Origin: a virus
Reading direction: 5' to 3' (one strand)
IMG/VR virus record: IMGVR_UViG_3300029266_000804
Location: 1-29,611 of that record
Length of the DNA stretch: 29,611 nucleotides
The position numbers and the translations under genes are program-made. Below, piece by piece: positions 1 to 10,367 of the stretch. The notes beneath the pieces are model-generated. The model ran no database searches. It had not been told where the DNA came from and worked only from the letters and a program-made list of their open reading frames with translations. How positions within the stretch are numbered: position 1 is the stretch's first letter; each line of letters begins with the position of its first letter.

Positions 1-1090
1 CACCCATGCCAGTGTTAATCAAATATACATTACATTCATTCGATTCGATTTTCTGCATCAGCAAATCACTATATTCTTTCACAGGTCGCGGCATAAAAGG
101 TGAACCATAACATGGACTGAATAGTGGTTTAATCTCAGTTGCGCCTTTTTCAGTACCAGGCATCTGACTTGTATATCCAGTTTCGAAAAATTTACGAACT
201 GTTTCACCACTAATTTTACTATAGGGTGGAAACACTCCTTTAGCATCCATAGTTAAGAAAAATATATTATCTGGATGATCAAATTTTTGAGGTTTGTGAT
301 ATGCGTTTTCAACACAAGTAATAGGATAACTCAGTCTTGCGTTTGCAACACCTGGATTTTCTACAACTAAGCAATCTTCTAATTTTGCCTTTTCAACAGC
401 ATCGAAGATCGTCTTATGTGTTTCTGGAGTCAGTCCCTCGCTCTTGGCATAGCATCCAGTTTCGATCATTTTGATGCCCTTATCATCCCAATAAACCTCA
501 TCATCACTAATCAACGCATAATCTGGGTCACTACTTAGTGTAGTTTTACCTGTTCCACTTAATCCAAACATCAAATTTGTAGTCGCATCATATGTAAATG
601 CGCTACAATGCATTGGTAGATAATTTTTTCTAGGAAGTTCAAATCCTATGACACCAAAAACTCCTTTCTTGATCTCACCAAGGAAGGTAGTACCTGCTAT
701 TAACATTGTTTTGGTATCAAGATTTACATGAATTTTGGGTTCTGAAACTTCTAGTTCTGTGTTGTGCCAGATCGTCCACTCTGGAACATTATGCCCAAAA
801 CCTTTAGGAAGAACATCAAACATATTTCTAACAAATTGTTCATGCCTTGCATCATTAGTATACACTTGAAATCTAATATTTGCAGATTCAAATTGTAAAG
901 GTTTTCTGTAGATATATCCTGTTATCCCTCTAGGCAACATTTGATCTGCTAATGAAAGATAATCATCCATGTCACCCACTTTACAATATTTTGGTCTCTC
1001 TTTACATAGTTCTGAAGTTGCTTTACCAAAAAAATATTTGTTCTCTGGACTACGCCCAGTAGGATTTGTTGTGATACTAATGTTTGCCAT
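1..1090 (-). CDS. pckA: ATP-type phosphoenolpyruvate carboxykinase (3' end outside window)
   Basis: PEP carboxykinase (ATP) interconverts oxaloacetate + ATP and PEP + CO2 + ADP, the entry step of gluconeogenesis, in the cytosol. I translated 363 codons with no stop; the reading frame leaves the window at the left edge, so the C-terminal third is not visible. Seen: GRSPENKY at 12-19 (substrate Arg13), GEIKKG at 138-143, MHCSA at 160-164 (metal His161), P-loop GLSGTGKTT at 176-184, SDDE at 195-198 and NARLSYPI at 250-257. These match, in order, the active-site blocks of E. coli PckA, including its Lys213, His232, Asp269 and Arg333. The protein is about 70 residues shorter before the P-loop than the 540-residue E. 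coli enzyme. The position of E. coli Tyr207 appears to hold Phe136. The start ATG follows AAGG by 9 bases and lies 5 bases after the preceding small gene, so it is the last visible gene of an operon that also encodes an aldolase. Confidence 0.93.
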   Translation of the reverse strand, partial: MANISITTNPTGRSPENKYFFGKATSELCKERPKYCKVGDMDDYLSLADQMLPRGITGYIYRKPLQFESANIRFQVYTNDARHEQFVRNMFDVLPKGFGHNVPEWTIWHNTELEVSEPKIHVNLDTKTMLIAGTTFLGEIKKGVFGVIGFELPRKNYLPMHCSAFTYDATTNLMFGLSGTGKTTLSSDPDYALISDDEVYWDDKGIKMIETGCYAKSEGLTPETHKTIFDAVEKAKLEDCLVVENPGVANARLSYPITCVENAYHKPQKFDHPDNIFFLTMDAKGVFPPYSKISGETVRKFFETGYTSQMPGTEKGATEIKPLFSPCYGSPFMPRPVKEYSDLLMQKIESNECNVYLINTGMG

Positions 1091-2441: not shown

Positions 2442-3539
2442 TTATTTTAAACCTATGTATTCGTGTGAATAGCATAATCTATCAGCATGTTTTATTAAAT
2501 GCTCAACAGATAACTTAGAATCTTTTCTTCTTTTTACAGAATTATATAATTCTTTTAAATAATCTTTTCTTGTTTTCATATTGTGAGAGGTATTTCTCCA
2601 TTTTTTAGATTGATTTCTATATCCACCTAAACGAATATTTGCCGTTTTGCTATAGTATTTTTTTCCTTCACTCAACATTATTTCGCCAGTTGCTTCAGAC
2701 ATTCTTGGACCAAAACCTAAACCTTGATAATCAGGACATATAACAATCCTATGCTCTCTCCAAGCATTTTTAATGGTTCCAGTTGGCATTGAAATTACGC
2801 TAGAAAATCCGATAGGTCGGTCTTCCCACCATCCAATCCAACATCGCACACCTTTATTGATGTTTCCGCTGAGATAGTGATGGTTGCTGAAATATTTCCA
2901 GACCTTTGTAGAACTTTCTTCAAGAGTGAATTTGATATTAGGTCGCCTTTGACACCCCCTAGTTAAAGTTTCTGTTGCAAGATCATATACCCAATCAGGT
3001 TCTAACCATTCTAATATATCATAATGACACGTAGCCAACACAACATTTTTAACATCAAATTTCTTTACATATCTTCCCATCGCACATGCTAAAGATATTG
3101 CAACTGTCCTATCAACGACTGATGTAAACTCATCTACTACTGCTCCAGACCGCAAGCATCTAGCCATATCCGCTCTATGTTTTTCACCAGTTGATAGAAC
3201 ATGATAAGGTTTTGTCCAAGTTGGTACACTATTAAGACCAACCGCACCCAACATTTTAGCGGCAGTTTTTGCATCTGGAAAATGACTAACGATGGCTTTA
3301 TTTGGATTCCAATCGTAAGTATATTCATTTCCAAACTTTTTTAGCAAAGTGCTTTTTCCTGTTCCAGATGGACCAACAATAACACCAATACCAAAAGAAG
3401 ATTCAACTTCTGGCATATCTGGAACTTTAAATTGAGAGTTCCCATCAAAGTCATAATCAAATATTTTTGATATCTCATCAGTTATATCGTCAAGTTCTAC
3501 TACTGAATTTAAATATTCGGTTTCTCCAAATAAACTCAT
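2442..3539 (-). CDS. ABC-type ATPase fused to GNAT acyltransferase domain
   Basis: A 365-residue two-domain protein. Residues about 50-190 are an ABC ATPase: Walker A GPSGTGKS at 56-63, signature LSTGE at 115-119, Walker B AVVDE at 133-137 and switch His172 (ATCHYD). No membrane segment is visible, so it is not a transporter. Residues about 205-315 look like a GNAT domain, with HHYLSG at 220-225 and the acyl-CoA pyrophosphate loop QGLGFG at 272-277. The C-terminal 45 residues are very basic, suggesting nucleic acid contact. ABC ATPase-acetyltransferase fusions are a recorded architecture of unknown role (COG2401-like). The GNAT enzyme Mom of phage Mu modifies adenine in DNA, and a Dam-type methylase lies just upstream here, so DNA modification is a reasonable inference but not shown. 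The start overlaps a duplicated mini-ORF that supplies the AGGA ribosome site. Confidence 0.82.
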   Translation of the reverse strand: MSLFGETEYLNSVVELDDITDEISKIFDYDFDGNSQFKVPDMPEVESSFGIGVIVGPSGTGKSTLLKKFGNEYTYDWNPNKAIVSHFPDAKTAAKMLGAVGLNSVPTWTKPYHVLSTGEKHRADMARCLRSGAVVDEFTSVVDRTVAISLACAMGRYVKKFDVKNVVLATCHYDILEWLEPDWVYDLATETLTRGCQRRPNIKFTLEESSTKVWKYFSNHHYLSGNINKGVRCWIGWWEDRPIGFSSVISMPTGTIKNAWREHRIVICPDYQGLGFGPRMSEATGEIMLSEGKKYYSKTANIRLGGYRNQSKKWRNTSHNMKTRKDYLKELYNSVKRRKDSKLSVEHLIKHADRLCYSHEYIGLK

Positions 3540-9658: not shown

Positions 9659-9918
9659 TATGAATCACCTCTAGGTAATGATCTATGACCATCAATCTGT
9701 GGAAGATTCATAGTTTGTCTGTTCAACATGTCTTCGATTTGGTGTATCGTCATATTTGGATATTCACATCTAAGCATGACTGCGATTTGTTTGTTCGCTT
9801 TGACCTGTTGACCCATTTGACAAGATTCTATGATGCCAGAAATGTTATCAGCGATTAGTTCAAATAAAGCACTAATTGCCTTCGTTAAGTAGTTGTGACT
9901 TGTTAGTATATGTTGCAT
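9658..9918 (-). CDS. Hypothetical protein, 86 residues
   Basis: Function unknown. A soluble helical protein, starting MQHILTSHNYLTKAISALFE and ending HRSLPRGDS. The ATG has AGGA 8 bases upstream and lies inside the hsp20 coding region, giving a 47-base out-of-frame overlap. Long overlaps are unusual, but the ribosome site is good and no later start is better placed. It is probably transcribed from the hsp20 promoter. Confidence 0.65.
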   Translation of the reverse strand: MQHILTSHNYLTKAISALFELIADNISGIIESCQMGQQVKANKQIAVMLRCEYPNMTIHQIEDMLNRQTMNLPQIDGHRSLPRGDS

Positions 9919-10342
9919 TTGAGTTTTCCTCGTTTTTTCCTATTGAAATTTTACGAGGACGCATTTCTTCTGGGATTTCATACTTCAGTTCTACGGCAAG
10001 TATGCCATCTTGAATATCTGCTCCGTTTACTTGAACGTGTTCAGACAATCGAAAAGTACGTTTAAACTTCTTGGTACTAATACCCCGATGGATAAAGTCT
10101 CTTCCTTTGCTTACATGCTCTCCAGTTACCATCAATGTTCGGTCTTTGACTTCGATTGATAATTCATCTTTTGAAAATCCAGCAACTGCGAGTTCAATAA
10201 GATACTCATGTTCGCTTGATCTAATAATATTGTGGGGTGGATAGTGGTCAGATGCGTGACGAACTGTATGTTCCATTTCGTTAAACAAATGATCGAATCC
10301 CACAAAAGATGATCGTGGAAATAGTGTTTGTATGCCTGTCAT
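9872..10342 (-). CDS. hsp20: Hsp20 / alpha-crystallin small heat-shock protein
   Basis: An ATP-independent holdase that keeps unfolding proteins soluble. The 156-residue protein has the alpha-crystallin domain, with GFSKDELSIEVKDRTLMVTG and the signature GILAVEL, then a C-terminal IxI-type RKISIG used for oligomerisation. Known: hsp20 genes are common in T4-like marine phages. Start: ATG at 10342 with AGGAG 8 bases upstream; a TTG 24 bases further upstream is rejected because it lies inside the leader hairpin. It has its own perfect consensus promoter and a long leader whose last hairpin sequesters the ribosome site, so expression is likely strong and temperature dependent. Confidence 0.95.
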   Translation of the reverse strand: MTGIQTLFPRSSFVGFDHLFNEMEHTVRHASDHYPPHNIIRSSEHEYLIELAVAGFSKDELSIEVKDRTLMVTGEHVSKGRDFIHRGISTKKFKRTFRLSEHVQVNGADIQDGILAVELKYEIPEEMRPRKISIGKNEENSNATYTNKSQLLNEGN

Positions 10343-10350
10343 TTTGGTTT

Positions 10351-10367
10351 CTCCTTTTCCAAGCAAG
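10351..10367 (-). promoter_or_regulatory. ROSE-like RNA thermometer hairpin over the hsp20 ribosome site
   Basis: Minus-strand RNA CUUGCUU-GGAA-AAGGAG. It can fold as U-A, U-A, C-G, bulged G, U-G, U-A, C-G closed by a GGAA (GNRA-class) loop, burying AGGAG 8 bases before the hsp20 ATG. A UUGCU pairing with the Shine-Dalgarno with a bulged G is the known signature of ROSE thermometers in front of bacterial small heat-shock genes. I inferred folding by eye; no energy was computed. Confidence 0.6.

Follow-up and report, generated by a model that had tools for sequence, protein, structure and literature searches.

The viral DNA analyzed here (29,611 nucleotides, positions 1 to 29,611 of IMG/VR record IMGVR_UViG_3300029266_000804; referred to as the window) carries at its left edge a gene, pckA, for a shortened ATP-type phosphoenolpyruvate (PEP) carboxykinase (PEPCK). 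We consider it probable, at roughly 70%, that this protein represents a compact ATP-dependent PEPCK of a phage-specific subfamily, which forms PEP from oxaloacetate during infection and feeds gluconeogenesis, PRPP, and sugar nucleotides. The initial annotation had called it an ATP-type PEP carboxykinase in a T4-like phage, an assignment now backed by the sequence family and predicted fold of the protein, by its catalytic residues, by purifying selection, and by the phage context of the gene.

The frame in the window starts with an ATG at position 1090 and runs for 363 amino acids until it meets, still open, the left contig edge. It matches the Pfam model PF01293 (PEPCK_ATP) with 293 bits and an E value of 4.1e-87 (Pfam cut-off, 26.5), and every active-site motif quoted in the initial annotation is found in it. 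A chance resemblance can be excluded. The gene is completed by IMG/VR contig 3300031848_000744 (L005), which is 99.96% identical to the window (3 mismatches in 7,090 bases). There, pckA encodes 405 amino acids, ends with a normal stop, and overlaps the next gene by 4 bases, and no frameshift or early stop was found on this continuation beyond the window's left edge. Given that a near-identical contig completes the gene without interruption in the same phage operon, the window pckA is neither debris nor chimeric; dozens of other assemblies also place pckA among phage genes. The leftward extension proposed earlier as a check thus ends in an intact gene that retains the equivalents of the adenine-side residues Arg449 and Thr455, and both an early stop or frameshift beyond the edge and a chimeric contig, named at the time as outcomes that would speak against the gene, were looked for and not found. 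The view of pckA as a candidate active metabolic gene is upheld, with activity itself a prediction from sequence and model. The complete protein scores 309.5 bits (E value of 5e-92) against PF01293, above the curated cut-off of 26.5 bits, and this was the only family listed in the Pfam scan of the window and L005 protein, with no match to the GTP-type PEPCK family PF00821. Since its score for the NCBIfam equivalog model TIGR00224 (pckA) is 268 bits, below the cut-off of 590.05, we file the phage protein, by its profile scores, as a divergent subfamily of PF01293 that lies outside the narrower equivalog.

The window comes from a marine phage that is T4-like by its gene content. PHROG profiles identified a T4-type gp43, a gp23, and a UvsW-like helicase (E values of 0, 3e-158, and 3.5e-98, respectively), a RegA-type translational regulator was confirmed by Pfam, and other frames resemble gp44, gp46/47, and others. 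The closest gp23 in INPHARED is that of phage C48C1 (65%, Kyanoviridae), followed by those of Methylophilales, Stenotrophomonas, and Pelagibacter phages (∼58 to 60%). The genes preceding pckA are, in this order, an aldolase, a cupin, and a small open reading frame (ORF) (Table 1). The cupin is a recurrent neighbor of pckA, present in 24 of 80 viral loci, and a 61-amino-acid relative of the small ORF occurs in five related loci. The aldolase, which the initial annotation missed, has a relative in locus L012 that matches NCBIfam PRK05377 with an E value of 1.7e-66, also under the cut-off of that model. On L005, pckA is followed by genes for a PMM-like HAD protein, a cytidylyltransferase-like protein, a DNA methylase, and an APRT-like phosphoribosyltransferase. 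The partners of pckA in the lineage of the window are the aldolase and sugar-phosphate genes. Most genes of the pckA region in the window and L005 have start and stop codons that touch or overlap.

Table 1. Positions of pckA, the genes preceding it, and further genes of interest in the window.
Feature	Position	Strand	Evidence or remark
pckA, shortened ATP-type PEP carboxykinase	2..1090	-	Residues 1-363 of 405; whole gene L005:6001-7218
Small ORF between cupin and pckA, 60 aa	1096..1278	-	No Pfam/PHROG match
Cupin-domain protein, 116 aa	1259..1609	-	PF07883, E 2.8e-8
Class I fructose-bisphosphate aldolase, shortened, 266 aa	1609..2409	-	PF00274, E 2.8e-4, just under cut-off
ABC/AAA-type ATPase and GNAT acetyltransferase parts in one protein	2442..3539	-	phrog_11143, function unknown
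HSP20-type small heat-shock protein	9872..10366	-	Relative in 22/83 pckA loci
Short dihydroorotate dehydrogenase-like protein, 241 aa	10468..11193	-	Relatives near pckA in four viral loci
HD_4 domain protein, 185 aa	13814..14371	-	Resembles RelA/SpoT hydrolase half; possible phage (p)ppGpp hydrolase

The short PckA family, missed by the initial annotation, is widespread in uncultivated phages. Searched with five phage copies, IMG/VR yielded at least 119 viral matches; we kept the 80 best loci as our viral set and compared 79 copies. These copies are 393 to 442 amino acids long (median, 398), and their mean identity is 70% among themselves and 34 to 38% to the nearest cellular PckA. The median dN/dS of 0.094 (pairs with dS of 0.1 to 1.2) shows that phage PckA is under purifying selection. 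No family member was found among the phage isolates in INPHARED, where the few matches (≤39%) look bacterial or are of the long type. Candidates rejected in this way were the PckA of phage record UPMK_1, which sits among Staphylococcus genes, those of Salmonella and Escherichia phage records, which look like host DNA from their record names, and that of LR756504 (636 kb), which is the long cellular type in a 528-amino-acid frame. A seemingly bacterial copy from a Flavobacteriales metagenome-assembled genome (L091) was also set aside; it lies on a 4-kb phage contig that was probably misbinned, and the genome has a long PckA as well. This pckA (L091:1-1228) equals that of the window after about residue 75 and differs before it, by either intragenic recombination or assembly mixing.

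An AlphaFold2 model built from a 46-sequence alignment (pLDDT of 89.7) predicts that the phage protein adopts a PEPCK fold; a model from 5 sequences (pLDDT of 47.7) was set aside. Its best matches among solved structures are all ATP-type PEPCKs (Z of 35 to 39, rmsd of 2.1 to 2.6, ∼385 residues), with GTP-type PEPCK next (Z of ∼27). The model spans residues 53 to 519 of E. coli PckA; its residue 2 aligns to E. coli residue 53, and phage R13 equals E. coli R65. The protein is indeed shortened at the N terminus, as the initial annotation had stated, but it is the ∼52 residues 1 to 52 of E. coli that have no counterpart rather than ∼70, and the C-terminal part is also ∼60 to 70 residues shorter than in E. 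coli. All 79 phage copies retain equivalents of R65, K212, K213, H232, S250, K254, T255, D268, D269, R333, R449, and T455 (with one gap at R65); those of R449 and T455, on the nucleotide side, are R368 and T374 in L005 and invariant. The P-loop GxSGTGKTT, D268/D269, K212/K213, H232, R65, and R333 are also kept in the five bacterial short copies described below. The earlier claim of a preserved catalytic core thus holds for these residues but overlooked two family-wide substitutions. Tyr207 is replaced by Phe in 78 of 79 viral copies and Glu297 by His in all 79, both changes are present in all five bacterial short copies, and the 35 long forms compared invariably have Tyr and Glu. In E. coli, we take Tyr207 to contact CO2, as in the CO2-bound structure, and Glu297 to contact the nucleotide; kinetics or nucleotide use could hence differ from those of the cellular enzymes. 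A literature search found no paper on Y207F kinetics or confirming the Tyr207 and Glu297 contacts. The Y207F mutant of E. coli PCK has been crystallized with oxaloacetate, according to the title of entry 6at3.

Across the viral loci, pckA is often found near other metabolic genes, whose identities we checked with NCBIfam and Pfam: class I aldolase (FBA) in 28 of 80 loci, GAPDH in 15, KDO-8-P synthase (KdsA) in 11 (in 6 of them directly upstream of pckA), and PRPP synthetase in 7. At least one of the four is present at 41 of 80 loci, and the remaining 39 loci have none within the flanks seen; when loci are grouped at 90% identity, 25 of the 37 clusters have one. On one 172-kb contig, prs, FBA, pckA, and GAPDH lie within ∼9 kb. 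Among the 50,697 phage records of INPHARED, relatives were rare, numbering 2 for FBA, 27 for GAPDH, and 6 for KdsA, many of them apparently host DNA; those of FBA and KdsA were thus very scarce. KdsA and/or KdsB stand beside pckA in loci L049, L051, L053, L060, L072, L077, L084, L086, and L088-L090, and the phages bearing them apparently synthesize KDO or a sugar resembling it.

In the role we propose, phage PckA would convert host oxaloacetate and ATP to PEP, CO2, and ADP during infection. The PEP would enter gluconeogenesis, with the phage's own aldolase taking part and GAPDH doing so in other phage lineages. This flow would supply the synthesis of phage DNA and of glycans with hexose and pentose phosphates, PRPP, and sugar nucleotides. 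Where a phage KDO-8-P synthase adjoins pckA, as in some relatives, it may use PEP directly. We infer the activity, its PEP-forming direction, and the use of its products from an intact gene with a PEPCK-like predicted fold, conserved residues, purifying selection, and metabolic neighbors. The neighbors point to PEP formation and gluconeogenic flow because PEP is a substrate of KdsA and ribose phosphate one of PRPP synthetase. The reactions of FBA and GAPDH are reversible and fit the glycolytic direction too, so these two alone do not settle the direction. The short form is the sole PEPCK found in the five bacterial genomes, which argues that it is a working PEPCK.

The PEPCK reaction being reversible, the same enzyme could instead act anaplerotically, turning PEP, CO2, and ADP into oxaloacetate and ATP for energy and for aspartate and pyrimidine synthesis. 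The dihydroorotate dehydrogenase-like gene of the window, with relatives near pckA in four loci, would suit such a role, and FBA and GAPDH could run glycolytically toward PEP. We nevertheless regard it as unlikely, since several lineages have the PEP-consuming KdsA as the immediate neighbor of pckA and others have PRPP synthetase near it, and since the change of Tyr207 to Phe removes a hydroxyl taken above to contact CO2, which should hurt carboxylation.

It is also quite improbable that the PEPCK fold was recruited for something else, be it an altered nucleotide, another phosphoryl acceptor, or plain oxaloacetate decarboxylation. The substitutions Y207F and E297H in essentially the entire family, the TIGR00224 score of 268 against a cut-off of 590, and the truncation at both termini would be compatible with such a shift, but the remaining catalytic and metal ligands checked are all invariant, no PEPCK but the short type was found in one bacterial group, where it occupies the native pckA locus of four of five genomes, and the E. 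coli Y207F mutant binds oxaloacetate, according to the title of 6at3. Accidental host DNA, contamination, or a decaying gene might be suspected from the bacterial look of PckA in named phage records, such as UPMK_1 with its Staphylococcus genes. This explanation is refuted by the at least 119 viral matches, the conserved length, the dN/dS of ∼0.09, the repeated gp43/gp44 context, and the absence of a stop in the gene. PEP formation during infection remains our preferred reading.

The short type is also found in bacteria, which the initial annotation missed. The single-cell genomes AG-404-G18 and AG-414-O15 of marine alphaproteobacteria encode a 397-amino-acid short-type PckA, ∼66% identical to the window copy. 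We considered whether their contigs (L092 and L093) are phage genomes in single cells and rejected this, as the 139-kb contig reads as a bacterial chromosome. Three further relatives carry the short type, giving five genomes in total (L092, L093, L143, L144, and L145), and four other near relatives have a long PckA (∼540 amino acids) at a different place. In four of the five, the short pckA occupies the ancestral pckA locus, between rapZ-hprK and an acyl-CoA dehydrogenase gene; the fifth contig ends inside the gene. At the corresponding locus of another alphaproteobacterium, a long pckA lies behind hprK and chvGI, and the chvGI genes are absent at the short-pckA locus of this group. Neither another PF01293 gene nor a GTP-type PEPCK was found in the five genomes, which come without completeness values. 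Among sampled genomes, 1 of 385 from alphaproteobacteria and 1 of 398 from Pseudomonadota had the short type, the same genome both times; 240 of the latter 398 have a PckA match.

The five bacterial copies cluster together in the PckA tree, nested among phage sequences on starred branches, and their identity to a phage copy reaches 82%. Rooting on the bacterial stem ranks 91st of 95 branches for root-to-tip evenness, and the outgroup branch is very long. Because an AU test did not reject a topology with phages as one clade and the bacterial copies outside (p of 0.249), we put forward phage-to-bacterium replacement as a better reading than the reverse, not as a proven direction. On balance we lean toward the view that, in a marine alphaproteobacterial lineage, the native housekeeping pckA gave way, at its own locus, to a PEPCK that evolved in phages and has two active-site residues altered. 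If true, a free-living bacterium relies on a phage-derived enzyme for its central carbon metabolism.

Compared with known systems, the phage form resembles the cellular ATP-type PEPCKs (E. coli 1aq2/2pxz and Thermus 1xkv/1j3b) in fold (Z of ∼38) and shares with them the P-loop GLSGTGKTT, the DDE motif, and the metal and substrate residues. It differs from them in size (393 to 442 versus ∼510 to 560 amino acids, at 34 to 38% identity), in Y207F and E297H, and in the missing E. coli residues 1 to 52 and part of the C-terminal region. A literature search found no description of the phage family reported here and turned up two viral cases. The PEPCK of giant viruses (Mimiviridae) has been read as metabolic reprogramming (PMC9270025); the Catovirus (A0A1V0SAL7) and Klosneuvirus proteins are also viral, but from eukaryotic viruses, and the phage form has 29% identity to the Catovirus protein. 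In trench sediments, pckA and ALDO are named in passing among viral auxiliary genes and read as gluconeogenic (PMC12448302, 2025), a likeness that goes by gene name and may or may not concern the present family, as no analysis of sequence, family, structure, gene neighborhood, or origin was seen in the text read. The family described here offers a natural set of ∼80 minimal PEPCKs in which two active-site changes are fixed, and its alphaproteobacterial members present a concrete candidate case of a core metabolic enzyme passing from virus to cell. Cyanophage auxiliary genes redirect host carbon toward nucleotides, in the pentose-phosphate direction and in phototroph hosts, and to our knowledge no PEPCK is among their carbon-metabolism genes. 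With pckA, uncultivated T4-like phages of the sea would control the step at which gluconeogenesis begins, a route different from the pentose-phosphate diversion of cyanophages.
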